DNA from: a virus
Direction: 5' to 3' (one strand)
IMG/VR virus record: IMGVR_UViG_3300023080_000001
Coordinates: 1-39,271 of that record
Length of the DNA: 39,271 nt
Shown: positions 3,908-29,124 of the stretch, piece by piece
How positions within the stretch are numbered: the stretch's first letter is position 1
How the letters are laid out: each line of letters opens with the position of its first letter
Notes under the pieces: model-generated
The model's input: the letters and a program-made list of their open reading frames with translations, nothing else
The model's database searches: none
Told to the model about the DNA's origin: nothing
Translations under genes and position numbers: made by a program

Positions 3908-4092
3908 CCGCCGCTTCCCGCAAATCCGCCGAACGCCAGCGCCGAAAGGATGCTGGCGAGGTGCGGGTAGAATTCTGGGTGTCCGCGACTACAGTTAGTG
4001 ACCTAGAAAGCTTACGCTATTGGCCAAACGAAACCCTGACTAAAAATGAGGCCCTAGAATACGCCGTTCGTATCGCCATTAACGAGTCGTGA
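3904..4092 (+). CDS. Small protein with a ribbon-helix-helix-like pattern
   Basis: The 62 residues start with a basic helix (SRKSAERQRRKDAG), then a short strand (VRVEFWV) and two helices (SDLESLRYW, TKNEALEYAVRIAI). Strand-helix-helix with a conserved small residue between the helices is the pattern of Arc/MetJ-type DNA-binding dimers. The ATG is in the ATGA overlap and the stop overlaps GTG of the next gene. DNA binding is inferred. Confidence 0.65.
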   Translation: MTAASRKSAERQRRKDAGEVRVEFWVSATTVSDLESLRYWPNETLTKNEALEYAVRIAINES

Positions 4093-4493
4093 CCACCCTC
4101 CTAATCACCGGCTCCCGCGATTTCTGCGAGTCCGTCACCACGACTGGCGAACCCCGTCCGCGCGACACCTACATGGCCGAACGCGAGTCCCTGGGGTTCA
4201 CGCTGGACTACATCGCGCCGTCATCGGTGATCGTCGGCGACTCATCCGGTGCCGACCGTTGGGCCGTGATCTGGTGCGAGCGACGGGGTATTCCGTTCAC
4301 CGTGTACCGCGCCGACTGGACGACGCACCAGAAACGCGCCGGTCCCGTGCGAAATCAGACGATGGTGGACCAGAGGCCAGATCAGGCGGTGGCGTTTCCA
4401 GGCGACGATGATGACTGTGTGCAGCGGTGTGAGGCGGCGAGGGTGCCGGTTTTTAGGGTGTCGGTGAAAATACCTGCGGGCGATTGTGTTTAG
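4089..4493 (+). CDS. SLOG-family nucleotide-binding protein (DUF2493/YspA type)
   Basis: The protein has the fingerprint of the SLOG/DUF2493 group: LLITGSRDF at 4-12, GDSSGAD at 50-56, then AVIWCERRGIPFTVYRADW, and KRAGPVRNQTMVDQRPDQAV near the end. SLOG proteins have a Rossmann-like fold and bind nucleotides or nucleotide-derived signals; phage members are common and mostly uncharacterised. It starts at GTG 4089 in a GTGA overlap. The length (134 aa) is typical. Substrate and partner cannot be told. Confidence 0.85.
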   Translation: MTTLLITGSRDFCESVTTTGEPRPRDTYMAERESLGFTLDYIAPSSVIVGDSSGADRWAVIWCERRGIPFTVYRADWTTHQKRAGPVRNQTMVDQRPDQAVAFPGDDDDCVQRCEAARVPVFRVSVKIPAGDCV

Positions 4494-6454: not shown

Positions 6455-6807
6455 ATCTCCGCTATCCGTGGTGGGACCGCTGGCACTCTCTACGCGGCCG
6501 TTCGCTTCCGCAGGCTCGCGCCGAACGTGCAATCCAGATCGCGTCCGAATGGATCGAGGCACATGCCTTTGAGGCCGAACGCGACGGCTGGCAACCCGTG
6601 CATATACTCAAGCCATTGACCGGCCTTGCGTGGCGCTGGCCCTATGCGCCTGAGACTGTCACGCGCAATCGTCTGATGTCCGCTCGTTTCGGACAACTTG
6701 ATTTCGTCTATCGGCCAGAGCGCGACGGGGCCGTGCATATCGTGACCGGCGACGCGCGCCACAAAGCCCTGATGTTGTTCGGCCTGCCTGGGGAGTATTC
6801 GGCATGA
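6451..6807 (+). CDS. Unknown protein upstream of the D5 helicase (118 aa)
   Basis: A soluble, Trp- and Arg-rich protein (WWDRWHSLRGR at the start, LTGLAWRWPYAPETV in the middle), with no motif I can name. It starts at GTG 6451 (GTGA overlap with the HTH gene) and its stop overlaps the helicase ATG (ATGA). Its position directly before a helicase that lacks a primase domain makes a replication role possible. Confidence 0.75.
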   Translation: MNLRYPWWDRWHSLRGRSLPQARAERAIQIASEWIEAHAFEAERDGWQPVHILKPLTGLAWRWPYAPETVTRNRLMSARFGQLDFVYRPERDGAVHIVTGDARHKALMLFGLPGEYSA

Positions 6808-8129
6808 GCGCGGTGACAAACTCCGCTGATGTGACCGAGGACAAAGCCGCCCTTTTGTTCGCCAAAACATACCGTGACCGCCTCGCATACTGTCACGACG
6901 AGGGTGCCTGGTACGAATACGACGGCGCTATCTGGAGGCAACACAGGACGCCTCTCGCGTTCCACTACGCCCGTGAACTCATGCGCGATATGTCGTCGGC
7001 ACTCCAGTCACCGGGGCAGTTCCAGAAAACGAAATTCGCAGCTGGTGTCGAACGGTTCGCACAGTCAGACCCTATTTTCGCCCGCACGTCCGACCATTGG
7101 AACAACGACGGATTTCTGCTGGGCACACCATCTGGAACCGTCGATCTGAAAACCGGAAAACTTCGGGATTCCAGCCCGCGCGACAACATAAACAAAGCCG
7201 CCGCTGTACCCCCTGCCATCACCTCCGACTGCCCTATCTGGTGCGATTTTCTAAACGACGCCACGGGCGGGGATCATGAACTCGTTCGCCTCCTGCAACA
7301 GATCGCAGGCTACAGCCTAACGGGAGACATCCGCGAACACGCCCTGTTTTTCATCTACGGGCCGGGTGGGAACGGAAAGTCGGTATATCTGAATACGATC
7401 ACCCGCATATTGGGGGATTATGCTCAGACAGCCGCTATGGCGACTTTTGAAAAATCCGCGAACAACGGAATTCCCGCAGACCTCGCCATGCTCAATGGTG
7501 CGCGCCTTGTGACCGCATCCGAAACCGAAGAGGGCAAGCCGTGGGCTGAGGCCAGGATCAAACAGATGACGGGCGGCGATCCGATCACAGCCCGATTCAT
7601 GCGCCAGAACTTTTTCACATTCACGCCACGGTTCAAACTGCTGATCGTCGGAAACCACAAACCCGTCCTGTCATCGGTCGATGATGCTATGCGACGGCGG
7701 TTCAACATCATCCCGTTCACCATCAAACCCGCATCGCCCGACAAGCAGCTTGAGGCGAAACTGGAGGCCGAATGGCCCGCTATTTTGCGCTGGATGATCG
7801 AGGGCTGCACCGACTGGCAACGTAACGGATTGGTGCGTCCTAAGTCGGTAGAAGACGCGACGAACGAGTATTTTCTGGAGCAGAATATTCTCCAGCAATG
7901 GCTCGATGAGGCCTGCGAAGTGGATCAAAGCAACCCCCACCTTAGCGAGGGTGCGTTGCGTCTTTTTGGCTCATGGTCGTCGTTTGTAGCCAAAATGGGG
8001 GAAGGCAAGGCAACAATGAAATCCTTCTCACAGACCCTTTCTAGGGAGGGATTTAACAAGAAAGTGACAAAACTCGGAAAATTTTTCCAAGGAATACGCC
8101 TTAAGCAGAACGATGACGACGATTCATAA
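6804..8129 (+). CDS. D5-type superfamily 3 replicative helicase (phage P4-alpha-like C-terminal half)
   Basis: A 441-residue protein with a D5_N-like N-terminal region and an SF3 helicase core. Walker A is GPGGNGKS (186-193), Walker B ASETE (238-242), and the sensor-type VGNHKP is at 282-287, followed by the arginine-containing MRRRF. It unwinds DNA at the phage origin and probably opens it. The usual P4-alpha protein also has a primase domain at the N-terminus; here the length leaves room only for the D5_N part. The 3' end is followed at once by a symmetric repeat region, a likely binding site. Confidence 0.9.
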   Translation: MSAVTNSADVTEDKAALLFAKTYRDRLAYCHDEGAWYEYDGAIWRQHRTPLAFHYARELMRDMSSALQSPGQFQKTKFAAGVERFAQSDPIFARTSDHWNNDGFLLGTPSGTVDLKTGKLRDSSPRDNINKAAAVPPAITSDCPIWCDFLNDATGGDHELVRLLQQIAGYSLTGDIREHALFFIYGPGGNGKSVYLNTITRILGDYAQTAAMATFEKSANNGIPADLAMLNGARLVTASETEEGKPWAEARIKQMTGGDPITARFMRQNFFTFTPRFKLLIVGNHKPVLSSVDDAMRRRFNIIPFTIKPASPDKQLEAKLEAEWPAILRWMIEGCTDWQRNGLVRPKSVEDATNEYFLEQNILQQWLDEACEVDQSNPHLSEGALRLFGSWSSFVAKMGEGKATMKSFSQTLSREGFNKKVTKLGKFFQGIRLKQNDDDDS

Positions 8130-8132
8130 AAA

Positions 8133-8236
8133 GGTGACGGGTGACGGGTTGTGACGGGTCGGCCCGGTAAGTCCGTACATGTGCGCGCATATAGGGTGTT
8201 TACGGGTTCTAGCGTCACCATCCGTCACCCGTCACC
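8133..8236. repeat. Symmetric dyad of six GGTGACGG repeats, candidate replication origin or operator
   Basis: The left side carries GGTGACGG at 8133, 8140 and TGTGACGG at 8150. The right side carries the reverse complements at 8229, 8222 and 8212 (the last with one mismatch). The spacings are mirror images (7 and 10 bases), so the whole segment is one dyad centred at 8184.5. The outer 15-bp arms (8133-8147 and 8222-8236) are perfect inverted repeats. It lies right after the helicase gene in a 145-base gap without coding potential on the plus strand. Confidence 0.7.
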
Positions 8237-8274
8237 GGGTTGATATTTGCGCCGAGGTAGTGTAAAAAACGAAC

Positions 8275-8475
8275 ATGGAAATCGAAAGACATATCGGACC
8301 ACCGAATCGGGGGCCAAATTTCAGAATCAGAGAAACGTTTATGAAAATGAACGTCGGGGATAGCGTGGTTGTGCAAGAGGTGAACAATCTTCACACCAAG
8401 GCTAAGCGGTTGGGCATGAAAATCGCCACGAAACAAATCGGCACCCTACAATACCGCGTCTGGCGCATCGCCTAA
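8275..8475 (+). CDS. Small conserved-looking phage protein (66 aa)
   Basis: The protein has the pattern GDSVVV..., AKRLGMKIATKQ, then YRVWRI, which I recall from short phage proteins found near replication genes (the family has no known function). The ribosome site is not obvious before ATG 8275, and an internal ATG at 8341 (MKMNVGDS) is an alternative start. It is the only gene between the dyad and the packaging genes on this strand. Confidence 0.65.
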   Translation: MEIERHIGPPNRGPNFRIRETFMKMNVGDSVVVQEVNNLHTKAKRLGMKIATKQIGTLQYRVWRIA

Positions 8476-15175: not shown

Positions 15176-15825
15176 TGGCGACGACGGCGCGAGCGATCAT
15201 TAACCTGGCCCTGAAAAAGCTGGGGGTGCTACGTGCCGGTGGGGAGGCGTCTGCTGCTGATGCGGCGGACGCCCTCTCTGCGCTGCTGTCGTTCTACAGC
15301 GAGAAAATCGAGGGTGGCGCGTTCGGTCGGGTGTGCATGATCCCGGTACTTAAGCCAGGTGAACTGACAGCCGGATCGAATATGCACCTCAACGTGCTGA
15401 CCGATGAGGAAGTGAATATCGAACTCCCCGCCACGGTGCCGTATGGCTACTGGCGGACGTGGATGCGGGGGCGTGATTACGGCTGGGGTCTGAATATCCC
15501 GCTGGGTGGCGACACCGGACAGAACGTGCCGCGAGACAAGTCCGTAGTGCGGATTACGGATCAGTTCGGGCCGGGGCGAGCGACATATGTGTACGACGCT
15601 CCTGTGCAGCGCTGGATGCGCGTGGACCTGCTGTCGTTGACCGATGAGGCACCGTTGAGCGCGCGTAATCCTGACGGTCTGGCGTCGGTTCTGGCGACCC
15701 GGATAGTGGACCAGTTTGGCGACACGTTGCTATCGCCGTTCACGCTGAAATCGGCTAATACATATTTGACCGCCCTCGTGACAAACTATGGCAGCGGGTG
15801 CGACGCGGATACATACGAATGGTAA
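15175..15825 (+). CDS. P22 gp4-like head-completion/tail accessory protein
   Basis: The protein of 216 residues fits the P22 gp4 group, which attaches below the portal and starts tail assembly. The start (ARAIINLALKKLGVLRAGGEASAADAADALSALL, around residues 5-40) is typical: a helical bundle that begins with an ALKKLGV motif. The order portal, scaffold, capsid, gp4 is as in P22. Its stop overlaps the tail-fibre start (TAATG). Confidence 0.85.
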   Translation: MATTARAIINLALKKLGVLRAGGEASAADAADALSALLSFYSEKIEGGAFGRVCMIPVLKPGELTAGSNMHLNVLTDEEVNIELPATVPYGYWRTWMRGRDYGWGLNIPLGGDTGQNVPRDKSVVRITDQFGPGRATYVYDAPVQRWMRVDLLSLTDEAPLSARNPDGLASVLATRIVDQFGDTLLSPFTLKSANTYLTALVTNYGSGCDADTYEW

Positions 15826-18176
15826 TGATCACACTGCCCGGCGACGGTAACGTAGATATCGTATTGCCGCGCAACGAAGGGCCTCCGGGTCCACAGGGAG
15901 ACCCCGGCCCTCCTGGGCCTGCCAGCCCCGGCAGCACAGACGTTCGCAGTATCGAGTACTACGGCGGGGTTGGGGACGGCACGACGAACAACACGACTGC
16001 GTTTGTTGCGGCGGATGCGTCGGGCAGGGCCACATACGTCCCTCCGGGTGTTTTTGTCGTGAATGCGCTCCCCACCGGGAAGTATTACGGCGAAGGCCGG
16101 ATTAGTGTTGGCGGCGTCGAGACGTTTTTGTCGTCAACGCCCCAGGTCGTTAACACCGCAGATGGATACACGCCGGTTTCGATAGGTGTGAAAGCCGGAT
16201 CGAATATGACGGTGAACGCGCGGGCGAATGTCGCCCTTGGGTATCTGTCGCAGCAATTGAATGTGAACGGCGACCGAAACACAGCGACGGGATATTTGAG
16301 TCTGGCGCGAGCCACGTCTCCGTTTGGATGCGAGGCCTACGGTGCGTCGGCGATGAGCGAATCCACATACGGGGATCGCGTTACGACCGTAGGGTCTACC
16401 GCCGCGAAATGGTCAGGATGCAGCGATCCTGTGGCAAGGGCACATGATTATTTCATAGCCGACGATCCTAACAGGAGCGCGCGGTGGCCTTTAGGCGGCG
16501 CGGACGGCGGGTGGCGGTCTGTAGTGGGGCCGCTGGGCGGCCCTTCTATGATCATCGCGCAAAGCAACGATGATAATTACCAGAATGTGTATGTGGGCCG
16601 CGACTCCGGTGACCACGCAGTTGTCGGCACCCGAAATACGGTAGTTGGAACCCATGCGTTTGAGGGCTGGGCCGCTAGTTATGTGACGGCCATCGGATGG
16701 GGCGCGCTACAATATCAGCTTGTAGATGGTTTCGGGACGGCGGTCGGTGCCGCTGCCCTGTACTCCCTGCATACGGGCATAAATAACGTTGCAGTGGGAT
16801 CGTACTCGGCAACAAATTTGGTTCACGGATATAGCAATGCGTTCTTGGGTGCTCGTTCCGGTTATTCATTAACGGGCGGGTCAACGTTAAAGGTCACAGC
16901 AGAGGCGAACGCCTATTTCAACACGTTTATCGGGTGCCAAGCGGGTCAAGAGGCGATTACCGCCATACGAACGACACTGGTTGGCGGAAATGCAGCGTCC
17001 GAACTTACGTCTGTTTCTGACAGCGCTGTCGTAGGATATCGTGCACTTAACGGTGTTTTGTCCGTTTCTCACGCCTCTGTGCTAGGCTACAGAGCCGCAG
17101 ATAGTATTCCTAACGGACTTGATAACATTGTCGCGATTGGGTTTGGTAGTCAGGTATCCGCCTCTAATACAGGCAAGATCGGATGGTCGCTCACAGATCA
17201 AACGCTTTCGGGTAGAGCGTACTCTAGCCAGTCGTATTCCACGATTAGTAACGCAGCGGGCGTAACGTACACTACGGCTCAAATGCTGAACGGCATGATT
17301 GTTCGTTCCGGCACTACAGGGCCGTTTAGCGATACGACACCCACGGCATCCGCCATCGTTTCGGCGATTCCAGGGTGTGAGATCGGTACGACATTTACTG
17401 TGTGGATCGCCAACGATGGCGACGACACACTGACAATCGTTGCTGGTTCTGGCGTGTCGCTTCTTAGAACCACGTCTATCCCATCTGGTTACAATCGTCG
17501 CTACGTTGGTCGTGTTACAAACGTGACGACTCCCGCAGTCGCCGTTGTCGGTCAGGAAGTGAGTGCAGCATCGGGATCGTTCAACACACTGTACCTTAAC
17601 GGCGGCACAAGCCTACCTCTGACGACCGAACGCACGACTTCATCGTACCATGTGATAATGAAGCGCGCCGGTTCAGAGTTGGGCGGTCTGCAACTAAACA
17701 CCGCCACGGCGCTACTAGTCGGTCTCGGCGGAAATCTGCCCGGTCTGGCTATCGCGGCCACTTCAAGCGGCGCACCAACAACGTTGTGGGTAGCGGACAC
17801 GGGTACGTTCCGCCCGATTCTGGACAATGCAGACGATTTGGGTCTGATCACCCGGCGAGTCCGAAAAGCGTTTGTATCAACCATTGTTACCGGCGTCAGG
17901 GTTGTTACGGCGGCTGGAGCGGTGACTGTAACCGATACAGACAGCATTGTCGTGATCAACAAGACAATCGGCGCGGCAACGGCTGTAAACCTGAATTCCT
18001 CCCCCGTTCTTGGTCAGCAGGTCAGGATCAAAGACGGGAAAGGTGACGCCGCGACAAACAATATAACTATTTCGCCAGCGTCAGGAACAATTGATGGTGC
18101 TGCATCAAGCGTTATCAATACAAACTACGGCGCGAAGATGCTGGTTTATAACGGAACCGAATGGAGTGTGATATGA
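15825..18176 (+). CDS. Tail fibre with collagen-like and YadA-like repeats
   Basis: A trimeric fibre of about 783 residues. Near residue 20 is a collagen-like stretch (GPPGPQGDPGPPGP), followed by a tailspike-type linker (YYGGVGDGTTNNTTAF, about residues 45-60). The long middle has repeated pieces such as NTVVGTHAF, AIGWGAL, NNVAVGSYS and NAFLGARSGYS, the left-handed YadA-type beta-roll found in trimeric adhesins. The end (LGQQVRIKDGKGDA, NITISPASG) is a common phage-fibre C-terminus. Start is ATG 15825 (TAATG); another ATG lies six bases upstream. Its location, between the gp4-like and gp10-like genes, is unusual for a P22-type phage. Base use looks a little more AT-rich than in the neighbours. 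Confidence 0.8.
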   Translation: MITLPGDGNVDIVLPRNEGPPGPQGDPGPPGPASPGSTDVRSIEYYGGVGDGTTNNTTAFVAADASGRATYVPPGVFVVNALPTGKYYGEGRISVGGVETFLSSTPQVVNTADGYTPVSIGVKAGSNMTVNARANVALGYLSQQLNVNGDRNTATGYLSLARATSPFGCEAYGASAMSESTYGDRVTTVGSTAAKWSGCSDPVARAHDYFIADDPNRSARWPLGGADGGWRSVVGPLGGPSMIIAQSNDDNYQNVYVGRDSGDHAVVGTRNTVVGTHAFEGWAASYVTAIGWGALQYQLVDGFGTAVGAAALYSLHTGINNVAVGSYSATNLVHGYSNAFLGARSGYSLTGGSTLKVTAEANAYFNTFIGCQAGQEAITAIRTTLVGGNAASELTSVSDSAVVGYRALNGVLSVSHASVLGYRAADSIPNGLDNIVAIGFGSQVSASNTGKIGWSLTDQTLSGRAYSSQSYSTISNAAGVTYTTAQMLNGMIVRSGTTGPFSDTTPTASAIVSAIPGCEIGTTFTVWIANDGDDTLTIVAGSGVSLLRTTSIPSGYNRRYVGRVTNVTTPAVAVVGQEVSAASGSFNTLYLNGGTSLPLTTERTTSSYHVIMKRAGSELGGLQLNTATALLVGLGGNLPGLAIAATSSGAPTTLWVADTGTFRPILDNADDLGLITRRVRKAFVSTIVTGVRVVTAAGAVTVTDTDSIVVINKTIGAATAVNLNSSPVLGQQVRIKDGKGDAATNNITISPASGTIDGAASSVINTNYGAKMLVYNGTEWSVI

Positions 18177-18235
18177 ACGACGAAGACGACTTCGACCCCG
18201 ACGAGGGTTCCGATAGCTACATCAAGGAGTACTAG
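18173..18235 (+). CDS. Acidic micro-protein (20 aa)
   Basis: Starts in the stop of the tail fibre (ATGA) and ends three bases before the next gene. Sequence is very acidic (10 of 20 residues Asp or Glu). Its last codons contain the AAGGAG that serves as ribosome site for the next gene, so it may simply be a coupling leader, or a chaperone-like peptide. Coding is not certain. Confidence 0.4.
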   Translation: MNDEDDFDPDEGSDSYIKEY

Positions 18236-18237
18236 CC

Positions 18238-18873
18238 ATGCCTGGACCTTATAACGCGGGGCAATCCCCTACACGGGTCGTTCTGGTTCAGCCTGACAAT
18301 ACCGACTACATCGCGGGCGGCGCTGGCGCACCGGCCTCGAAAGCGCAAATTGTCGGGAACGATGGCATCACTAACGCCGTTGTGGCCAGCACGACAGACG
18401 GAAGCGGAAACACCAATCCAAGCGTTCACACCGTCGCCAAAGTTAGCCTATTCAACGGAACGTCGTGGGACAGGGGGCGCAGCATTGATGCGGTGGCAGC
18501 TGGCACGGGCATGGGCGTGATATCTACGGCTATAGCGCCTCATTCGGCTGCGTCAGGTGCGCTTGCTTCGTCCGCCACGTCCGTCGTTGCCTCTTCGCTG
18601 ATTCTTAAGGCCAGCGCCGGTAACCTGTACGGCTTCAACGTCGTGTCGGGTGCGTCGGCTGGTTACCTGCTGATCTACGATTCGGCGACCGTTCCTGCTG
18701 ACGGCGCTACGACCCCGAAACGGGCGTATGTGATCGCTGCAAACGCCTCTATGTCGGTATCGTTCGAAATCCCGCGCCGGTTCGCGTCGGGTATCGTGCT
18801 GGTGTTTTCGACCACAGGACCGTTCCTGAAAACTGCATCCCCGACAGCGTTCCTCTCTGGAGAATTTGTGTAG
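18238..18873 (+). CDS. Unknown virion-module protein (211 aa)
   Basis: A Gly/Ala/Ser-rich, beta-rich protein with no transmembrane segment; the second half (SAGNLYGFNVVSGASAGYL) has the composition of tail or head-surface proteins. A strong ribosome site (AAGGAG) lies seven bases upstream. It is coupled to the next gene (TAGTG overlap). A structural role fits the context only. Confidence 0.7.
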   Translation: MPGPYNAGQSPTRVVLVQPDNTDYIAGGAGAPASKAQIVGNDGITNAVVASTTDGSGNTNPSVHTVAKVSLFNGTSWDRGRSIDAVAAGTGMGVISTAIAPHSAASGALASSATSVVASSLILKASAGNLYGFNVVSGASAGYLLIYDSATVPADGATTPKRAYVIAANASMSVSFEIPRRFASGIVLVFSTTGPFLKTASPTAFLSGEFV

Positions 18874-19286
18874 TGGGCGACGTTTACACAGGGCTGATCC
18901 CCACAGCTGGCACGACCACGCCCCCCGTTATCCAGGAATCGGGTGTAATCGGCGCGGATATGCAGTACGCCCGTGCGGACCATACCCACGCCTCAAACCT
19001 GCGTCGTGGTCGGCAACAGTGCGCGACGGACGGCTCTCTGACGTGGGTATTCGATCCGCCGTTCGCACCGGGCGTCGTGCCTCGGATTAACGCTCTGGCT
19101 GAAACTGGCGTCGGCGTAACGGACGTGGTGAACATACAGGTCGAGGGAACGCCGACGAATACTCAGGCGGTTCTCAGGGTAACGCGGACTAGCCGGTCTG
19201 TGGTGGCGCTGATCGGACTCACGATCTTGTCTATTCCGGGGTCTGTCGGCGCGACGTGGGTTCACATGAGCGCGGCATCCAGTTAA
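18873..19286 (+). CDS. Unknown virion-module protein (137 aa)
   Basis: The start is GTG 18873, sharing one base with the previous stop. The first 40 residues have the ADHTHAS motif typical of phage fibre and tail proteins, and the rest is beta-rich. Its stop overlaps the gp10-like start (TAATG). Probably a small tail or fibre component. Confidence 0.65.
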   Translation: MGDVYTGLIPTAGTTTPPVIQESGVIGADMQYARADHTHASNLRRGRQQCATDGSLTWVFDPPFAPGVVPRINALAETGVGVTDVVNIQVEGTPTNTQAVLRVTRTSRSVVALIGLTILSIPGSVGATWVHMSAASS

Positions 19287-20659
19287 TGCCTGAAATCCCG
19301 CTCGGCACATCCAGCAAAAACCGCCGCACGACGTGGACACCTAATGTCCGGTCGGTGAATATGCTTGTCGAGCAATCGGTGACGAACCGGTTCAACGGGG
19401 TCGATCATATCCAGCGCCCCGGTCTGGTTCGGTTTTCGACGGTGGGTAGCGGGCCGATCCGGGGTGTATTCAGGCAGGCGGGCACGTTTGACGGCGATTT
19501 CGTGGTTGTGTCTGGCGAAGACTTGTTTCGGATCGACATGAGCGGCTCAGAGACGCTGCTGGGCGGCGTTCCGGGGGTTCTGCGTACATCGACAGCCGCG
19601 ACCCTGACGCGGGTTATCGTGGCGTCTGACGGGCTGGCATACAGCACGACGGGCGGTGCGGTTACTGAGATCGTCATGCCTGACTCGCGTCCCGTTTCCA
19701 GCGTGGCGCAGCTGAACGGGTATTTCGTGCTGACTGAACTAGGGTCGGCGCGGTTCTACTGGATTGCGCCGGGTGAAACGGACCCTGACGGACTGAGCTT
19801 CGCTACCACGGAATCGTCGCCGGGGGACATCCTCAAGGTCGAACGGGTCGGGGACGAACTGTGGTTTTTCAAGGAGGAGGGGATCGAGGTCTGGATTCCG
19901 ACTGGCGAGGCCGATCTGCCGTTTCAGCGTGTGCCAGGCCGTAACTACGACAAGGGGTGCCGTAACAGGGACTCGATCTGCCGTTTCGATAACTCGGTGG
20001 CGTGGGTAGGTAACGACGGACTGGTTTATCGCGCTGCCGAGTCGCCGCAACGGTTCTCGGATAACTCGCTTGAGGAGCAGATCAGGAAGTCGGATGCGGC
20101 GTCGCTCAGGGCGTGGTCGTTCGCGAACGACGGACATACGTTGTACTGCCTGACGACGAACCTGGGGACGTGGGCGTTTGATGCACTGTCGTCTCAGTGG
20201 AGCGAGTTTCAGTCGCACGACCGTCCGTTCTGGCGCGCGCACGTCGGAGACACGGGGGATACGTTCGTCGTGGCCGGTGACGACGAACTAGGCGTGGTTT
20301 ACCGGCTGGACGCGGACGCATCGAACGACGATGGCGCTCCGATGACACGGATCGTCACGGGCGGGGTTCCGGTTGTGGGACAGCCGGAACGGTGCGACTC
20401 GTTTTCGTTGTACGCGACCACAGGGACGGCGGTTGACCCGGAACTGTACGCGAAAGTCCGTATCAGCTGGTCCGACGACATGGAGACGTATGCCGACTGG
20501 CAGGATGTTTCGATTGGTCGCCAAGGTAACTACTGGCGTCCGGTTCGGATAAACCGGCTGGGATCGATGCGTTATCCGGGGCGTCTGTTTCAGGTGAAGG
20601 TGACGGACGATGTAGTCGTGACCGTATCGGCTGCTGCGTATAACGAGCCGTCACGATGA
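19286..20659 (+). CDS. P22 gp10-like tail hub / packaged-DNA stabilisation protein
   Basis: In P22 gp10 forms the tail hub that closes the DNA channel after packaging. The protein of 457 residues has the family look: an N-terminal NMLVEQSVTNRFNGVDH, QRPGLVRF, GVFRQAGTFDG, and repeated beta strands such as GDELWFFKEEGIEVW. I use ATG 19286 (TAATG) since a longer start at 19256 would overlap the previous gene. It stops in an overlap with the next ATG (ATGA). Confidence 0.88.
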   Translation: MPEIPLGTSSKNRRTTWTPNVRSVNMLVEQSVTNRFNGVDHIQRPGLVRFSTVGSGPIRGVFRQAGTFDGDFVVVSGEDLFRIDMSGSETLLGGVPGVLRTSTAATLTRVIVASDGLAYSTTGGAVTEIVMPDSRPVSSVAQLNGYFVLTELGSARFYWIAPGETDPDGLSFATTESSPGDILKVERVGDELWFFKEEGIEVWIPTGEADLPFQRVPGRNYDKGCRNRDSICRFDNSVAWVGNDGLVYRAAESPQRFSDNSLEEQIRKSDAASLRAWSFANDGHTLYCLTTNLGTWAFDALSSQWSEFQSHDRPFWRAHVGDTGDTFVVAGDDELGVVYRLDADASNDDGAPMTRIVTGGVPVVGQPERCDSFSLYATTGTAVDPELYAKVRISWSDDMETYADWQDVSIGRQGNYWRPVRINRLGSMRYPGRLFQVKVTDDVVVTVSAAAYNEPSR

Positions 20660-21408
20660 AGTTGACGCTCCCGAAACTACAGTTGCGGCTGCCGATTGTG
20701 GACAAGTCGGGCTGTCCGACTGACACGTTCCACAGGTATATGAACGTTGATTTCGCGAACCCGATTGTCAGGAACGCGGCTGACGTGGCTGCGCAACTGG
20801 TGCTGATACAGCAGGCGCAGGCAGATATTATTGCCACTCAAGAGCAGATTATCCGGGTGCTTACAGGGCAAGAGAACTTCACAGCGTTGCTGGTTAATAA
20901 CCAGAACGTGCGACCGTTCCTTGATAAGACCGATGGTGACGCGATTATTGATTCGTCGGCGTTCGCTGCTGGTGTCGTGAATACTGGCGCGATTGCAGCG
21001 GGGGCGATCACGACTCCACATTCTGCCGTGACGTTTGGCGTTATCGACGGTAAAGTCGCCGGGAATCTTATCGTGCAGACGTTGAGTGTTACGACGATTG
21101 CCGGTGATATTGTTGATATCTTGGGGACCGTAAGTATTTCGTCTCTAGGTAACGGCGCTACTCTTGGGGGGTCTCTGGCTAGGGGTGTACTGTATATCTA
21201 TCGTGACGGAACCGCACTGACATTGAGCGAGGTTGGAAACGTAATTAATGACGTGGCGGTTCGTGTTAACGCGCCTATTGCGTTTACGGATATACCGGGC
21301 GCTGGTACATTCACTTATACAATCCAAAGCGTACTATCAACTGTCGTTGACGTTGACACATACGACATAAGTTTTCGATATATGTCAGCTACGGTGTCTC
21401 AACGATGA
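20656..21408 (+). CDS. Probable tail needle/fibre-type protein
   Basis: The start (KLQLRLPIVDKSGCPTDTFHRYMN, motif PIVDKSGCPT) is that of phage tail-fibre-like proteins. A coiled-coil stretch (VAAQLVLIQQAQADIIATQ, residues 44-62) and a beta-rich end follow, compatible with a trimeric needle or short fibre. In P22 the needle gene (gp26) follows gp10, which fits the order here. The identification as needle is inferred from position. Confidence 0.6.
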   Translation: MKLTLPKLQLRLPIVDKSGCPTDTFHRYMNVDFANPIVRNAADVAAQLVLIQQAQADIIATQEQIIRVLTGQENFTALLVNNQNVRPFLDKTDGDAIIDSSAFAAGVVNTGAIAAGAITTPHSAVTFGVIDGKVAGNLIVQTLSVTTIAGDIVDILGTVSISSLGNGATLGGSLARGVLYIYRDGTALTLSEVGNVINDVAVRVNAPIAFTDIPGAGTFTYTIQSVLSTVVDVDTYDISFRYMSATVSQR

Positions 21409-21623
21409 TCTATATTGTCACGGACATGGCTGGAGCGATTTTACGCAGCGGTGTCGCCCCTGACGCATCGGCACAGGCAGGTGGGGGCGAAATAGCCTAC
21501 GAGGTCGAAGACGCAGAGGGTGGGTTTATCGACGACCGCGTTGTGACCGTGACGGGGGATGACGAATATGAAGGCGTCGATCCGTCAGAAACGGGTAAAT
21601 ATGGACGGCTTACACGACGATAG
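21405..21623 (+). CDS. Small tail-region protein (72 aa)
   Basis: An acidic beta-rich protein (ILRSGVAPDAS, GGGEIAYEVED) of a type often found beside tail-fibre genes, coupled to the previous gene (ATGA). Function unknown. Confidence 0.65.
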   Translation: MIYIVTDMAGAILRSGVAPDASAQAGGGEIAYEVEDAEGGFIDDRVVTVTGDDEYEGVDPSETGKYGRLTRR

Positions 21624-22065
21624 GTCGGCGTACTGGACGCCGATTTTAACACACCCCGACATTGAGCCGAGGGTTCTCGCGGGGCTTGGGAGTGTAGATG
21701 ACTTCGTTTGGTGGCTTGATCGTCCTGAAACGCACGAGGAACGCGCCCCAGGTGGCGGATTTGTATTCGTGGACAAAGGCCAGGATCAGGAAGTACACGT
21801 CGCGTTCCTACCAGAACATTGGGGGCGTTCGGTCGCCGATTCGTTTCGACGGGTATTCGCGCGAAAGATGCGAGAAGGCAGGACGATTCTGGCCCGCGAA
21901 CAAGAGGGCGAATGGCGGACACGACCACCGAAATCTCACGGTTGGGAACTTGCCGGGGGGTGGGAGCCGTCGATCCTGCCCCGACGAACTAGACTGTGGC
22001 GTTTGACACCGGATGCGTGGTATCGTTCAAGAGTAGGCAGGGCGACAGATGAGTTTCATAACTGA
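21568..22065 (+). CDS. GNAT-like/assembly protein of the DUF2824 position
   Basis: A 165-residue protein with GGGFVFVDKG, VHVAFLPEHWGRSVADSFRRVF, a pattern like the acetyl-CoA fold of GNAT proteins. P22-type phages carry a DUF2824/GNAT-like assembly protein (gp14) near this place, so it may be that. The start is uncertain: ATG 21568 has a GGGGA eight bases upstream, ATG 21601 would shorten it by 11 residues, and ATG 21559 would lengthen it by three. It overlaps the previous gene by 56 bases and the next by 17, unlike the rest of the operon. Confidence 0.6.
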   Translation: MKASIRQKRVNMDGLHDDRSAYWTPILTHPDIEPRVLAGLGSVDDFVWWLDRPETHEERAPGGGFVFVDKGQDQEVHVAFLPEHWGRSVADSFRRVFARKMREGRTILAREQEGEWRTRPPKSHGWELAGGWEPSILPRRTRLWRLTPDAWYRSRVGRATDEFHN

Positions 22066-22651
22066 CATTTTCTCGGCGAAGTCTGCGGCCAAGGGTCAGC
22101 AGCGCGCCGCCGATGCCGCGTCGCAGGCGTCAGCGTCGTCGCTGGCCGAGCAACGTCGCCAGTTTGATCAGTCGCGAGCCGACCAGCAGCCGTGGTTGCG
22201 AACGGGTACGTCGGCTCTGGATGCGCTGTCGAAACTGTACGGCCTGAATGGTCAGCAACAGAGTTTCGGCTCGTTCACGGCCTCTCCTGATTATCAGTTT
22301 CGCCAGAACGAACAGAACCGCGCACTCACAGCCCGTAACTCAGCGCTGGGGATTCAGGACAGTGGCGCGGCACAGAAAGCCGCCTTGAAATACAGCGGTG
22401 ATCTGGCGTCAGGCGAGTTTAACAACTACACGAACCGGCTGGCGGGATTGGCGGGCGTCGGACAGGCCGCTGCGAACACGAACGCGCAACTAGGCCAGAA
22501 TTATGCGGGCGCGGTTACGGGTATTAACCAGAACACGGCAGCGGCGCTTGGGTCGTCGTATATCAATCAGGGGAATATCTACGGGAACCTGTGGTCAAAC
22601 ATTGGCGGGCGCGCGGATCAGGCGGCGTCTATGTTCCTGGGTGGACGATGA
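22049..22651 (+). CDS. P22 gp7-like DNA-transfer/ejection protein
   Basis: A 200-residue Ala/Gln/Gly-rich protein (TDIFSAKSAAKGQQRAADAAS, then SRADQQPWLRTG, FTASPDYQFRQNEQNRAL). This is the pattern of the small ejection proteins of P22-type phages (gp7), which leave the virion with the DNA and help build a channel through the envelope. It is followed by two larger ejection genes, as in P22. The start overlaps the previous gene by 17 bases. Confidence 0.8.
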   Translation: MSFITDIFSAKSAAKGQQRAADAASQASASSLAEQRRQFDQSRADQQPWLRTGTSALDALSKLYGLNGQQQSFGSFTASPDYQFRQNEQNRALTARNSALGIQDSGAAQKAALKYSGDLASGEFNNYTNRLAGLAGVGQAAANTNAQLGQNYAGAVTGINQNTAAALGSSYINQGNIYGNLWSNIGGRADQAASMFLGGR

Positions 22652-24408
22652 GCGACGTAGCTTTCGACCCGTTTGGTTCTCGCGCCGCTGGGCTGAACTA
22701 CGGCCAGCGTCTCACACAGTTGGGCGGTCAGTATCGCGCCGGTAATCAGATGGCGAACGGACAGCCTGCACAGGCGGCACAGGCGCTGTATCAGTCTGGT
22801 GATCTGGCAGGCGGTCGTCAGATTCAGGGCGACATGGCGGCGCAACAGGAAGCGGCGCGGACGCAGGAAACCGAGGCCCGTGCACGTCAGGCTCAGTTCA
22901 CGATCCAGGCCGTTCGCGCGCTGAAAAACACGCCACCCGAACAACGGAATCAGGTTTTCGCGTCGATGGCACCGACGCTGGAAATGCTAGGTCAGACACC
23001 GCAGGATATTCAGGCGTTCGGGCAGGCGCTCTCGTCGAATCCCGGCGTCCTCGATCAAGCCGAACAATGGGCCGGGAATACGTTGCGGGAACTTGAGTTC
23101 CGTAACGCCGGTCAGGACGTTCTGGTCCTCGATAAAAACACGGGAGAACAAGTCCAGAGGTATCAGCAGTCGCCGCAAGATTACTCGCTCGGGAACACGC
23201 GATTTGACGGCGACACGAACGCGCCTGTCGCTCAAGGGTACGTCGCGCCCCAAGTTATCCAGCGCGACCCTGAAAAAGACCTGATCGAGATTACGCCGGG
23301 ATCGACGCCTAGTCGGGTGGGGGGTGACGCGGCGAACGTACCGGCGCTCGTGCAGAGCATTATCCCCGGCGCGCGTCTGACTAGCGGATTGCGGACGCCA
23401 GATCAGAACGAACGGGCAGGTGGCGCGCGGAACAGCTTCCACCTTCGCGGACAGGCGGTCGATATCGCACCTCCCGCTGGCATGAACCTGAACGAGTTTC
23501 GTCAGCAGCTTGCGGCACAGGGCGTCGATATCGCCGAACTGATCGACGAGGGCGATCACTGGCACCTCGCATGGAATGGCGGCGGTCAGGCCCCGAATAT
23601 TGGTCGTGGCGAAACCGTGCAGGCTGGCCCGCGCGTTCTGGCGCAGGGGACGCCACAGGCCAGCGAGGGAGGTTCAGCCGCCATCCTGACGCCTGAGGAA
23701 GTCGCCGCCGCTGGTCTCAATCCGGGAGGCGTATATCAGCGCAGTCGCACGGGTCAGATTTCGACCGTGCAGGCCGCGCCGGGTGCCGGGCGTCAAGGTA
23801 ATCCGACCGAGGCGCAGAACAAGGATTCATTTAACGCTAACCGGATGACGGATTCCGGGGCGATCCTGGCCCGTATGGAGCAGGAAGGGTTCGATTACGG
23901 CGCGTCTCTGGCGACTGGCGGTGCGTTCCGTGAGGATGGGCGCCAGTATCAGGCGGCGGCTCGCGAATGGGCCGACTCCCTGTTGCGTTTGACGACAGGT
24001 GCAGCGGCGACACGCGATGAAGTCGAGAGCGCGCTACAAAGCTATTTCCCGCAAATCGGTGACAGCGCTGCCGTTCGCCAGCAGAAAGCACAGCGCCGCG
24101 CCCAAGTGGAGCGTGACGCACAGGCGCGCGGTCAGGGTGGTCGTTCGGCTCGCGCACCGGAAGCCGCGACAGGAACCCGCCAGCGCCCCCGTACGAACGC
24201 CCCAGGTCTGCCGTTCGATATCACGCCCGCACAACTATCGCGCCGTCAGCAGATCGTCCAGTCGGGTGGTTCGCCGTCGTCGGCGCTGGGGTCTCCCCAA
24301 AATCCGCGCTACCTCAATCCAGCCGACCCGAACGCGAGTTTCGGCAACGTGCGGAGTGGCGAGTATTATGTCGGTCCAGACGGTCGCGTTCGCGGGCCTA
24401 AACCCTAA
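22648..24408 (+). CDS. Ejection protein with an M15-type peptidase domain
   Basis: A 586-residue protein in the P22 gp20 position. The first 200 residues are helical and Ala/Gln-rich. A peptidase M15/VanY-type domain follows: SFHLRGQAVDI gives His265 and Asp272 (SxHxxGxxxD), and DHWHLAW gives His304/His306, the zinc ligands. The rest is low-complexity. M15 enzymes cut peptide bonds in peptidoglycan, so the protein could open the cell wall during DNA entry. I chose ATG 22648 (ATGA overlap). The stop overlaps the next start (TAATG). Confidence 0.8.
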   Translation: MSDVAFDPFGSRAAGLNYGQRLTQLGGQYRAGNQMANGQPAQAAQALYQSGDLAGGRQIQGDMAAQQEAARTQETEARARQAQFTIQAVRALKNTPPEQRNQVFASMAPTLEMLGQTPQDIQAFGQALSSNPGVLDQAEQWAGNTLRELEFRNAGQDVLVLDKNTGEQVQRYQQSPQDYSLGNTRFDGDTNAPVAQGYVAPQVIQRDPEKDLIEITPGSTPSRVGGDAANVPALVQSIIPGARLTSGLRTPDQNERAGGARNSFHLRGQAVDIAPPAGMNLNEFRQQLAAQGVDIAELIDEGDHWHLAWNGGGQAPNIGRGETVQAGPRVLAQGTPQASEGGSAAILTPEEVAAAGLNPGGVYQRSRTGQISTVQAAPGAGRQGNPTEAQNKDSFNANRMTDSGAILARMEQEGFDYGASLATGGAFREDGRQYQAAAREWADSLLRLTTGAAATRDEVESALQSYFPQIGDSAAVRQQKAQRRAQVERDAQARGQGGRSARAPEAATGTRQRPRTNAPGLPFDITPAQLSRRQQIVQSGGSPSSALGSPQNPRYLNPADPNASFGNVRSGEYYVGPDGRVRGPKP

Positions 24409-26675
24409 TGGCGCAAGCATGGGACGCTGTACCGGTTGTCGGTGATACACAGGCCGCACCGCCTGTCGCGGCTGCACGTCCAGCGCGCGGATATCGTGTT
24501 GAGCGTCAGGCGTACACGAACGAGACGCCAGAGGAGCTGACGGCTCAAGGGTATCAGCAGGACGACGCGGGGACGTGGTTCAAGGTTGTCGGCACCGAAC
24601 AAGCGCCGTCAGCAGCGTGGCGTTCGGTTCCTGTCGCGCCGGAACCTACCGGGTCACAGACTCTAGCCGACGAACAAACGCGTCGTATGCTGACAGCTAA
24701 CGGTGACACCGCCGCGCGCGAAAACACGTTCATGAACGGGGTTTTGTTCGGGGCGGCGGACGAAATCGGCGGGCGTGTGGCGCAAGCGGGGCAGGCTACA
24801 CGGAACTTGGGTCGCCGTCTTTCCGGACAACCTATCGAGGTGAATTCGGCGGATGTAAACGACGCTTACGTTCGCAACTATCGCGACTCGGTGGGTGAAT
24901 TCACCGAACGGCACCCGGTGCAGTCTCTAGGTCTGTCGCTGGCCGGTGGCGGGCTTACGGGCGGCGGCGTGGTGGGCGGTGGGGTCCGTGGTGCCATAGC
25001 GACCGGCGCGGCTTACGGCGGCGCTTACGGTTTCGGTTCCAGCGAGGGCACGTTCGCCGAACGACTCCCCGGTGCCGCTACGGGCGCGGTTGTCGGTGGC
25101 GCTCTAGGCGGCACAGTTCAAGCCGCTGCACCCTACGCCCGTCGTCTGGCCGGTATCGCCAGCGCGGGGACGCGACCGATCCGTGAGACCGCTTCCCGCA
25201 TGGTCGGGCGTCCTGCTGAACCGAACGTGGTGGCGGCGCGTCGTATCGCGGATCAGCTTCGTCGTCGTGGCCTCTCTGAGGATCAGATCGCCGCTGAAAC
25301 TACGCGGTTCCGCGAGGCGGGTCTTAACCCTTCCGTGGTGGACGTGGGCGGCGAAAACGTCATGGCGACTGTCCGCGCTGCTGCATCGGGTGAGGGTCCA
25401 GGCCGTCAGCTTGTGACCGATTACCGCGACCGTGTGGCGTCCGAACTGACGCCGCGTGTGGTCGAGAGAACTCGTCGCCTGATACCGGACGAAACGCGCG
25501 ATTCTTACACGCTGGCTGACGATCTGACGCGCTCCCGGAATACCGCTGCCCGCGATCAGTACGGACCCGCATATGCCGCCGTGATTGAGGTTCCAGATAT
25601 CGCTATCCGCGCGCTTAGGGGGCCAGAGGGTACGCAGGCGATGGCGTCTGCACGTCGTCTGGCGAGTGCAGAACAAAGATACGACGTTGCAGCTGAAATC
25701 GACGCACTGGCAACGGCGGACCTCGACCAGCTGCCTATGGCGTCAGGTCGCGCCCTTGAAACCATCCGTCGTGCTATGGCAGACGAAGCCGCTGGCCTAT
25801 CAGAATCGTCGCCGGGCCTGTCTAATGCCCTCATGGACCGTGTACGCCAACTGGACGACGCGCTGGATAATGTGCCCGGTCTGACTGAGGCGCGCGGTAA
25901 CTATCGCGCCGCGTCCGAACAGATCGACGCCGTGGGAGGTGTGCCGCGTAACGGTCGTCAGCGTTTGGGGCGTCCTGATCGCGCGCCGGTTAGTGCGATC
26001 ACCGCACCGGCTCCGCAGTACAGTTCCTATCTCGACAGTCTGCGTCCGCAGTCAGGTGCCGCGAATCAGGTGTATCAGCGCGACGCCCTGATTAACCGAC
26101 TGTCGAACTCTAAGGACGGCGCGGTCGGTGCGTTGAACGCTCTGACGCCCGGTCGTAACGCCGCCCTAACTGAGAATGCACCGTATATCGCGCGTAACCT
26201 TGAGGCGACGTTCCCTGGGCACGGTCAGCAGTATCAGCAGGATATTAACCTGGCCCGCGAACAGATGACGTTCGCGAACCGGATCAGCCCCAACGATGGG
26301 TCGCAAACGGCGTCACGGTTGGGCGATCAGGCCGGGGAAATGGTCGCGGCTGGTCTGAACGGTGCGGCATCCGTAGCGACGGGCGGCAAGTGGGCGCTCG
26401 TGAAACTCGGCCTCGATAACCTGATCCGCAACGTTGGCCTGAACGAAGCCGAACGCGCGGCCATCGTTGAACTGGGCATCGGGTCGGCTGACGAAATCCA
26501 GAACATCCTGCGTGTCGCTGCTGAGTCGCGCCGTATGGGCTCGCCGCCTCCCGCCGAGGTTCAGGCGTGGCTTGTGCGGACACGAAACACCCTCGGCTCG
26601 CAAAACCCCGTCAGTCAGCAGATCGAACAGCTTCTGTTGCCATCGCCTGTCTTAGCAGGAGAAGAACAGCAATGA
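24408..26675 (+). CDS. Large ejection/DNA-transfer protein (gp16-like position)
   Basis: A 755-residue protein directly after the M15 protein, in the P22 gp16 position. Residues near 175-245 contain Gly/Ala-rich segments (GGGLTGGGVVGGGVRG, AIATGAAYGGAYGFG) that look like membrane-inserting glycine-zipper helices. The rest is mostly Arg-rich helical, with an Arg/Gln content typical of ejected proteins. Similarity to P22 gp16 by eye is limited to layout. The stop overlaps the micro-gene that follows (ATGA). Confidence 0.75.
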   Translation: MAQAWDAVPVVGDTQAAPPVAAARPARGYRVERQAYTNETPEELTAQGYQQDDAGTWFKVVGTEQAPSAAWRSVPVAPEPTGSQTLADEQTRRMLTANGDTAARENTFMNGVLFGAADEIGGRVAQAGQATRNLGRRLSGQPIEVNSADVNDAYVRNYRDSVGEFTERHPVQSLGLSLAGGGLTGGGVVGGGVRGAIATGAAYGGAYGFGSSEGTFAERLPGAATGAVVGGALGGTVQAAAPYARRLAGIASAGTRPIRETASRMVGRPAEPNVVAARRIADQLRRRGLSEDQIAAETTRFREAGLNPSVVDVGGENVMATVRAAASGEGPGRQLVTDYRDRVASELTPRVVERTRRLIPDETRDSYTLADDLTRSRNTAARDQYGPAYAAVIEVPDIAIRALRGPEGTQAMASARRLASAEQRYDVAAEIDALATADLDQLPMASGRALETIRRAMADEAAGLSESSPGLSNALMDRVRQLDDALDNVPGLTEARGNYRAASEQIDAVGGVPRNGRQRLGRPDRAPVSAITAPAPQYSSYLDSLRPQSGAANQVYQRDALINRLSNSKDGAVGALNALTPGRNAALTENAPYIARNLEATFPGHGQQYQQDINLAREQMTFANRISPNDGSQTASRLGDQAGEMVAAGLNGAASVATGGKWALVKLGLDNLIRNVGLNEAERAAIVELGIGSADEIQNILRVAAESRRMGSPPPAEVQAWLVRTRNTLGSQNPVSQQIEQLLLPSPVLAGEEQQ

Positions 26676-26749
26676 ACATCACTGTGATGGGCTGGCCGCT
26701 CCACCAAAATAAGACTATCAGTATCGGCACTTTCGGAGTGTACCACTAA
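26672..26749 (+). CDS. Micro-protein (25 aa) between ejection and tailspike genes
   Basis: Translation from ATG 26672 gives a 25-residue protein (MNITVMGWPLHQNK, then TISIGTFGVYH). It overlaps its upstream neighbour by ATGA and its downstream neighbour by TAATG, and no other reading fills this gap. The double overlap is the main evidence that it is real. Confidence 0.55.
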   Translation: MNITVMGWPLHQNKTISIGTFGVYH

Positions 26750-29124
26750 TGCCCGCTGGTCGTCTCGTTATTCCATCGTGGATGCCCGCGCTAAACAGCG
26801 ACGGGTTTCCGATTCCTAATGCCCAAGCGTTTTTCTATTTCGACGGCACGACGACACTGCAAACGGTGTACGCTGACGAGGATTTACTGACGCCTCTCGC
26901 TAATCCTGTGAAGGCGAACAGTTCTGGACGGTTCCCGACTATTTGGGCCGATGAGGACACAGTTTACAGCGTCACTATGGACGCCGATTACGGCCCGCCC
27001 GGTGTGCCGTTCACGTTCAGTGGAATCACGCCGTCTGTGGACGGGGTTTTGTACAGCGTCGCGCTTGCGGAAGCCGCTGCCGGTAACGCGGAGGACGCCG
27101 CTGCACTGGCTGTAGAGGCGGCGTCCTCGATCATTGGCTCCGGTCTGCGGTTCGGGCCGTTCACGATGGACGGGGTTTCAACGACTATTCAGATGGCCCA
27201 GGTCGTCGCAGCCGGAAACGAGTGGACCGTTCAGGTTTTTGCTAACGGCGTACTTTTGTATGTCGATGACTATTCCACGAACGGCACGACCACGCTTACG
27301 TTTGACGTGGCCCCTGCTAACGGTGTCGTTATCGAGGGGGTCCACGTCGGGGCCTCTATTGGCTTGGACGGTCTGTCACCGCGCATCGCTACGGTCCCCG
27401 ATGGACCGCTACTTACAAACGTCGTCCGGTTTTCCAGGGTTCTCGACTATGCAGACGCGCCCATGGTTTTCAAGAACGGCTCGACTGATGACGGACCGGG
27501 GATCGTCGCGGCCTATGCGTATTCCAGCACATGGACACATTCGTCTGGCGTCGTCAGGATTATGTCGAACACGACGATCCCCGAGGGTTCGGTTACGACT
27601 CTAACGGACGGCCAGATATACGTCGGAGCCGGGATTACACTGACGATCTATGGCGCGTTTAACGCTCCGTCTGATCGCCAGATTTTCACCGGGCCGGGGA
27701 CTGTGGTGGGTCTGGCGTATGCCGTTGCAGAATGGTGGGGCGCGAACGGTGATTTTAACGAATCTCGGATTAACGACCCAACGTACACGTCGTACACAGA
27801 CAACGCCCCCGCGTTCAATAAAGCCGTCGCGTGTGTCCTGGGGGCTGGGGTCGGCGGTGGTTACGCGGGATCGCCCCGTGTGCAGGCTCTTGACCGCGCG
27901 TATGGCCTGAAAACGCCTATCGTGATCCAGCCACTACTGGACGCACCGATTGATTTCATCGGTGCGAACTGGACAGTGGACGGATCGGGGACGCGGTTTT
28001 ATTCGGGGGATAGCGCGGGCTGCGTCATGGTCACGGGCGGCGCTCCGTTCTCGAATCCTAACGCGTTCGTGAAGTTCCGTCTCGCGGATTTTCAGGTTTT
28101 GGGAACCGCGAACCGTGCACCTGTGGGGGTTACGATTGCCGGTGACGGGGGGGCTACGGACAAGGTTCTGTCCGGTCTCCTGTCGAATGTGATCGAAAAC
28201 GTCGTCGTAACCGACATGGCGACGTGTTTCCTGTCGTCGGGTGTGACGAAACTACGCGCGAAAAACTGCACAGGTCTGAACGGCGCGATCTTTGGGATCG
28301 GCTGGGAAATCAAGCCGTCACCGGGTGGCACAATTACGTCTGATGTGTCGTTTGAAGGCTGCATCATGTCGCAACCGAATAGCGGCGGGATGAATGGGCG
28401 CGGCTGGTATATTCACAACGACGACGTGTCGGTCGGATCACCGTCGCTGCAAAGCGTTCGGGGTATCTCGTTTGACGACGACTGCCAAGGGTATGCGGGT
28501 CGTCAGGGGATTTCAGTGTTTGTGTTCGGCGTCGGCGCGGTCGGTAAGTCGCGCAACATCGGCGACATATTTTTCGCGCCGGGGACGAAGTTCCAGGGCG
28601 GATCGGGTCTGGACTCGACCGCCGCGCTGTTTGTTGACGCCCGCGATGGGTGCCAGATTTCCACGATCAAGGCTATAGGGTGCCAGTTCGAAGGTCTGAA
28701 CGGTCCTGCTATCCAGATGCAGATCACGACTAGCGGGGCTGTGTTCGGCGAGGTCAACGACATCGTGATCGCCGGTAACACGTTCCGATATAACCTGAAC
28801 CAGTCCGTTATCATGGACGGGGTGTACGGGTATTCGATCACCGGGAATATGCTCCAGTATTGCGGCGCTGCTGCTGCCCCTGCGGCTGAGCATATGTATG
28901 CGCGTAACTCGTTCGGGCGTATGCGTGATAACCTGACATCCCACGACGACGCCGTGTCGTGGCCTGGACTAGGGCGCGGTATCACGATCACCGGGGCGAA
29001 TACGAAACCCACCTATCTGTCAGGGAACGCTATGGGCACGACAACCGCTAGAGTGATTGAGGCTTCAGCGGTGGGGCTGGCGACGGATAGCACCGAACAG
29101 CCATCGACGATTTCACAGGTTTAA
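26749..29124 (+). CDS. Tailspike/tail fibre with a predicted right-handed beta-helix
   Basis: A 791-residue receptor-binding protein. The N-terminal 100 residues (PSWMPALNSDGFPIPNAQAF, motif FYFDGTTTLQTVYAD) look like the virion-anchor region of tail fibres. From about residue 210 the pattern VRFSRVLDYADAP... DDGPGIVAAYAYS is typical of pectate-lyase-type beta-helix spikes, and the repeated short strands with Asn/Gly turns (residues 380-760) fit a beta-helix. An enzyme activity toward a host polysaccharide is likely by analogy, not visible. It is the last of the virion genes; a 38-base gap separates it from the lysis region. Confidence 0.8.
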   Translation: MPAGRLVIPSWMPALNSDGFPIPNAQAFFYFDGTTTLQTVYADEDLLTPLANPVKANSSGRFPTIWADEDTVYSVTMDADYGPPGVPFTFSGITPSVDGVLYSVALAEAAAGNAEDAAALAVEAASSIIGSGLRFGPFTMDGVSTTIQMAQVVAAGNEWTVQVFANGVLLYVDDYSTNGTTTLTFDVAPANGVVIEGVHVGASIGLDGLSPRIATVPDGPLLTNVVRFSRVLDYADAPMVFKNGSTDDGPGIVAAYAYSSTWTHSSGVVRIMSNTTIPEGSVTTLTDGQIYVGAGITLTIYGAFNAPSDRQIFTGPGTVVGLAYAVAEWWGANGDFNESRINDPTYTSYTDNAPAFNKAVACVLGAGVGGGYAGSPRVQALDRAYGLKTPIVIQPLLDAPIDFIGANWTVDGSGTRFYSGDSAGCVMVTGGAPFSNPNAFVKFRLADFQVLGTANRAPVGVTIAGDGGATDKVLSGLLSNVIENVVVTDMATCFLSSGVTKLRAKNCTGLNGAIFGIGWEIKPSPGGTITSDVSFEGCIMSQPNSGGMNGRGWYIHNDDVSVGSPSLQSVRGISFDDDCQGYAGRQGISVFVFGVGAVGKSRNIGDIFFAPGTKFQGGSGLDSTAALFVDARDGCQISTIKAIGCQFEGLNGPAIQMQITTSGAVFGEVNDIVIAGNTFRYNLNQSVIMDGVYGYSITGNMLQYCGAAAAPAAEHMYARNSFGRMRDNLTSHDDAVSWPGLGRGITITGANTKPTYLSGNAMGTTTARVIEASAVGLATDSTEQPSTISQV

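Follow-up and report, generated by a model that had tools for sequence, protein, structure and literature searches.

A mirror-symmetric iteron array behind a D5/P4-family helicase gene as a probable phage replication origin

Origins located behind P4-family helicase genes

The C-terminal domain of SaPI Rep recognises iterons located directly downstream of its own gene, to which the protein binds apparently as two hexamers, and the C-terminal domain of SCCmec Cch2 binds repeats downstream of its gene (PMC7581432). In pRN1 of Sulfolobus islandicus, a 100-bp element behind orf904 is enough for replication to be restored, and small deletions within the element prove lethal; it has been published as a stem-loop without iterons (PMC4234260, PMC3869888). 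Annotated non-coding repeat regions are also present directly behind the homologous primase/helicase genes of Lactobacillus phage A2 (rep_origin) and Streptococcus phage Sfi21 (origin). The alpha protein of phage P4 (ori1/crr) is an SF3 helicase with a winged-helix origin-binding domain and is fused to a bacterial-type primase. The iterons of P4, of the GGTGAACAG type, resemble the repeat word described below, while the layout of the P4 origin is unlike that of the dyad studied here.

The window, that is, the whole stretch of DNA analysed here, is a viral record of 39,271 bases from a tailed phage with terminase, P22-like portal, D5 helicase, SSB and VRR-NUC genes. Comparison with related loci suggests that a 104-bp dyad behind the helicase gene is very probably the replication origin of the phage and the binding site of the upstream D5/P4-family helicase. 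The features of the locus are as follows.

6804 to 8129, plus strand: D5/P4-family SF3 initiator helicase of 441 aa, without a primase domain (Pfam D5_N + DUF5906)
7899 to 8126, plus strand: C-terminal winged-helix domain of the helicase (residues 366-441, predicted fold), proposed iteron reader
8133 to 8236, no strand assigned: whole dyad, 104 bp, centre 8184.5, proposed phage replication origin
8133 to 8140, plus strand: left iteron 1, GGTGACGG
8140 to 8147, plus strand: left iteron 2, GGTGACGG
8150 to 8157, plus strand: left iteron 3, TGTGACGG
8174 to 8193, no strand assigned: central strictly alternating purine-pyrimidine tract CGTACATGTGCGCGCATATA, 20 bp, Z-DNA-prone, the longest such run in the window
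8212 to 8219, minus strand: right iteron 3, top strand GCGTCACC, minus strand GGTGACGC
8222 to 8229, minus strand: right iteron 2, top strand CCGTCACC, minus strand GGTGACGG
8229 to 8236, minus strand: right iteron 1, top strand CCGTCACC, minus strand GGTGACGG

The first-pass annotation of this DNA knew of no named origin with this layout. Closely similar layouts are in fact known behind this helicase family (SaPI, SCCmec, A2, Sfi21 and pRN1), and the iteron origin is of a known kind, represented by SaPI Rep, SCCmec Cch2, P4 alpha and pRN1. The likeness to SaPI Rep (SaPI5 Rep, PDB 7ola, 7om0) and SCCmec Cch2 lies in the shared helicase family and in short iterons that follow the gene directly. 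Unlike these proteins, the window helicase has no primase part; the window dyad furthermore differs in its 3+3 copies, its mirrored 7,10/10,7 spacing and its alternating GC-rich centre, the comparison with SaPI being one with its published description. A2 and Sfi21 differ from the window in their AT-rich centre, with short TATATA runs of 9-11 nt, and in arms that are more spread out.

The element of pRN1 resembles that of the window in being symmetric, about 100 bp long and located 3' of a P4-family replication gene, in having arms of about 20 bp (21 bp in pRN1) on either side of a centre of about 55-60 bp (58 bp in pRN1), in being poorly conserved in sequence among relatives, and in accompanying a protein with a winged helix. 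The arms of the pRN1 element (L406:3188-3281) each contain TGTCCA twice, 9 bp apart, in a 2+2 arrangement around the 58-bp gap, so that the essential pRN1 'stem-loop' can be read, from its sequence, as an inverted iteron origin. The arms of pRN2 also appear, by eye, to carry a GGAC motif that recurs after about 9 bp, and no clear 2+2 iteron layout was found in BPP-1, a phage cited as pRN1-like. The pRN1 centre is AT-rich and has no long alternating tract, in contrast to the alternating centre of the window, and the fused archaeo-eukaryotic primase of the pRN1 type is absent from the window protein, which consists of D5_N and DUF5906 only.

Geometry of the dyad and its conservation in relatives

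The six-copy mirror arrangement that had been described from the sequence was confirmed, with copies starting at 8133, 8140 and 8150 on the left and at 8212, 8222 and 8229 on the right, and spacings of 7 and 10 bp mirrored by 10 and 7 bp. The first base of a copy and the last base of its mirror partner add up to 16369 for every pair, which places the centre at 8184.5 as proposed, and the outer 15-bp arms, GGTGACGGGTGACGG and CCGTCACCCGTCACC, match perfectly. Two iterons, those at 8150 and 8212, deviate by one base, and adjacent iterons at 7-bp spacing have one base in common. The entire 104 bp form an imperfect palindrome that is 71% complementary. The dyad lies, as had been noted, in a non-coding gap, which opens after the helicase stop (8129) and extends to the next possible ORF, at 8275. 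No Rfam family or tRNA was found.

A scan of the whole window showed the dyad to be unique of its kind in these 39 kb. Its 3+3 score was reached by none of 3000 dinucleotide shuffles of positions 8130-8379, and the 2+2 score by three of 3000. The single GTGACGG 7-mer is common in the window (21 copies vs 11 expected), and it is thus the arrangement that is special, not the word.

Conservation was examined in a non-redundant set of 82 loci drawn from both viral and bacterial contigs. A dyad was defined here as one 8-mer present in at least two direct and at least two inverted copies no further than 250 nt from the helicase stop. Inverted iteron arms follow the stop in 44 of the 82 relatives, compared with about 1% of controls (3/410 shuffled regions and 3/246 control windows). 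This supports the earlier reading of the dyad as a replication origin, as does the position of the tested or annotated origins of pRN1, A2 and Sfi21, which sit at the same place. The remaining 38 relatives have no dyad according to the strict detector, and the alternating tract is present in most of them. Where a dyad is detected, the iterons are mostly spaced 9-10 bp apart, sometimes 7-8 bp, and the gap between the innermost copies is mostly 48-71 bp.

The repeat word changes extensively among these loci. Alongside the window word GGTGACGG, relatives carry GGTGACAG, GTAACGCA, AGCGACGC, TGGCGGAT, CGAAGGGA, CTGTGCAG and others. Even the three closest relatives, whose helicases are 70-74% identical, do not have GTGACGG at this position and instead present GTAGG(A/G)T-type words as inverted arms in the same place; the one with the 74% identical helicase carries GTAGGGT-type words. 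Conversely, a search of viral contigs for GTGACGG dyads returned 107 stretches, in 20 of which a D5 relative is detectable with the window helicase. Inverted GTGACGG arrays were also observed near VapE-like, relaxase or terminase genes in four loci (L013, L043, L065 and L072), where a D5 relative was not detected. As some GTGACGG dyads adjoin such genes, the word alone is insufficient to define the class.

Two further arrangements were observed among the relatives. In L130, nine same-direction copies of a TTACACGT-like word lie about 100-180 nt past the helicase stop at exactly 9-bp spacing, with just two opposite copies, which would make this array a strongly asymmetric version of the origin. 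In Mycobacterium cluster K-type phages (L292-L324), a long non-coding region with several repeat families follows the helicase, and the alternating tract, which was looked for there, is absent.

A different reading of the symmetry, of the kind proposed for pRN1, is that the functional unit is a long hairpin, either an RNA terminator or an extruded cruciform, with the repeats merely forming its stem. A 119-nt stretch here does fold at -65.6 kcal/mol (z -7.6), and in pRN1 stem-loop deletions and structure-changing mutations abolish replication. However, pairing of the whole stem-loop is not conserved in the relatives, in which the inner flanks, from the iterons to the centre, pair at chance level (0.58 vs 0.55 in shuffled sequences), and copy number and spacing are often unequal between the two arms. 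The stable fold is thus most simply a by-product of the inverted iterons. Moreover, a hairpin requires neither direct repeats nor the co-variation with a winged helix described below, and just one terminator-like match touches the dyad, a stem of 5 pairs at the right end that is distinct from the dyad stem. We consider the hairpin reading improbable.

The helicase and its predicted winged helix

The window helicase matches the P4-family primase C-terminal model TIGR01613 (primase_Cterm) with 275 bits. Its best sequence match in the PDB is SaPI5 Rep, and its AlphaFold model (pLDDT 90.7) aligns to SaPI5 Rep (7om0) with a Z of 30.4 over residues 1-436. Modelling of the C-terminal domain alone gave a winged helix. 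Among its best matches of solved structure are the RFX1 DNA-binding domain together with its DNA (1dp7, Z 8.1) and the origin-binding domain of phage P4 (1ka8), the latter match being moderate, with a Z of 6.3 over 71 residues. An SF3 helicase, a predicted C-terminal winged helix and downstream iterons, all of which are features of self-loading initiators of the D5/P4 kind, are therefore present together. The bacterial-type (Toprim) primase fusion of P4 alpha is absent from the window helicase.

Across the relatives, the similarity of iteron words tracks the identity of helicase residues 369-441 when the AAA+ core is controlled for (partial Mantel r 0.46, p 0.0005, in a test that corrects only partly for phylogeny). 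The AAA+ core and the N-terminal part show no added correlation with the word once the C-terminal part is known, and a per-residue search for specificity positions returned no clean cluster. Since variation in the repeat word goes along with variation in the C-terminal winged helix, the role of iteron reader is best assigned to the helicase itself, on comparative grounds. The 118-aa upstream protein, which had been put forward as another candidate for binding the repeats, loses ground here, as it was found in the three closest relatives only.

The same observations bear on the suggestion that the dyad is an operator, to which the helicase or another phage protein would bind and regulate transcription into the packaging genes. 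The dyad does separate the early replication genes from the terminase genes, and a multimer bound there might also have a regulatory effect. Nevertheless, no promoter-like match was found inside the dyad, the partner that co-varies with the repeats is the tail of the helicase, the tested origins of homologues occupy the same place, and the downstream 66-aa ORF was not found in relatives. An operator function in place of an origin appears very improbable.

With regard to priming, no primase was found among the window genes scanned. As none is seen either in the helicase or in these other genes, the phage may use the primase of its host. The AcaML1, CL2 and JAWS homologues carry a primase part, whereas the window D5 helicase does not.

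The alternating centre and a proposed mode of opening

The first-pass annotation did not mention the central tract. Across the loci, the steps of such tracts are mostly CG/GC and CA/TG, which are of the Z-DNA-prone kind. The long alternating CG/CA/TG-rich tract expected of a Z-DNA-forming element is present, the Z-form itself being predicted. An approximate Z-energy calculation from dinucleotide values, with the phase-switch penalty omitted, places the tract among the best sites of the window, not as the single best. The centre is not AT-rich; across the loci, the mean GC of the gaps is 0.55 and that of the core about 0.8, with lower values in the shoulders on both sides.

Alternation is a shared trait of the relatives. 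Over the 44 dyad loci, the alternating run between the arms has a mean length of 18.9, compared with 6.3 when the gaps are shuffled and 5.9 when other windows are taken. When the 200 nt after the stop are considered without using the repeats, runs of at least 15 nt appear in 54 of 82 loci vs 0.08% of control windows, and many loci without a detected dyad are among those that carry such a run. In 15 of 21 loci of the AcaML1 clade the run is no shorter than 15 nt, while low-GC Lactobacillus-type relatives show short TATATA runs in place of the long tract. Mismatch rates are alike inside and outside the tracts (25% and 28%, respectively). Transitions outnumber transversions inside by 8560 to 2254 (3.8:1), as opposed to 15620 to 27508 (0.57:1) outside, in a count that does not require a tract in the partner, that uses non-independent pairs and whose ratio in-phase alignment can inflate. 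As read from these comparisons, the conserved property of the tract is its purine-pyrimidine class, not its sequence.

It could be argued that the dyad is an origin, but that base composition or simple-repeat slippage produced the alternating tract, which would then have no role. CG/CA/TG-rich repeats can indeed expand through slippage, and the short TATATA runs that replace the tract in low-GC relatives also speak for this reading. Against this stand the excess of run length over shuffled gaps and the fact that the tract sequences differ among phages, with mismatches that favour class-preserving transitions. A tract devoid of function is in our judgement unlikely, though less so than either the hairpin or the operator.

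Returning to the dyad as an iteron origin, the C-terminal winged helix of the helicase would bind the three iterons on each side, and the inverted arms could seat two helicase hexamers head to head, flanking a centre of about 54 bp. The centre would then be opened, presumably by melting, and two forks would depart in opposite directions. The alternating tract, in place of an AT-rich element, probably eases this opening; under negative supercoiling the tract might, for example, switch from the B- to the Z-form, while the shoulders, which are less GC-rich, melt at the junctions. The GC skew is uninformative on the position of the origin: its local dip at 7.5-9 kb is confounded by gene direction, and the record is a linear contig.

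Three aspects look new within the open literature searched. One is the rule by which the repeat word switches along with the winged helix, another is that the pRN1 'stem-loop' can be reread as iterons, and the third is the alternating centre, as no phage origin with a Z-prone centre was found among open-licence papers. We would tentatively propose, with somewhat more doubt than confidence, that these loci may form a widespread class of phage origins in which a Z-DNA-forming tract replaces the AT-rich unwinding element, centred in inverted iterons whose words evolve jointly with the winged helix of the cognate helicase, and to which the pRN1 'stem-loop' would belong as an iteron origin. If so, the class would hold a natural recognition code and would explain the pRN1 'stem-loop'. 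The layout provides a sequence rule for finding replication origins in many uncultured phages, and the dozens of natural pairs of helicase and word offer material for reading the recognition code of a winged-helix initiator. It also offers a testable answer regarding the targets of pRN1-type replication proteins, for which a 2014 description gave 'not yet identified sequence motifs'. Should the alternating centre act as Z-DNA, the phage would have an unwinding element without AT-richness, which could be tested directly on a DNA of roughly 110 bp.

As for the phage itself, a GcrA-like regulator at 1260-1550 and, at 538-1263, a protein that matches a CcrM-like adenine methyltransferase in part both point to an alphaproteobacterial host. 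The window also encodes a SLOG-family (YspA-like) protein at 4089-4493 and has a weak, below-cutoff YdaS match at 392-589.
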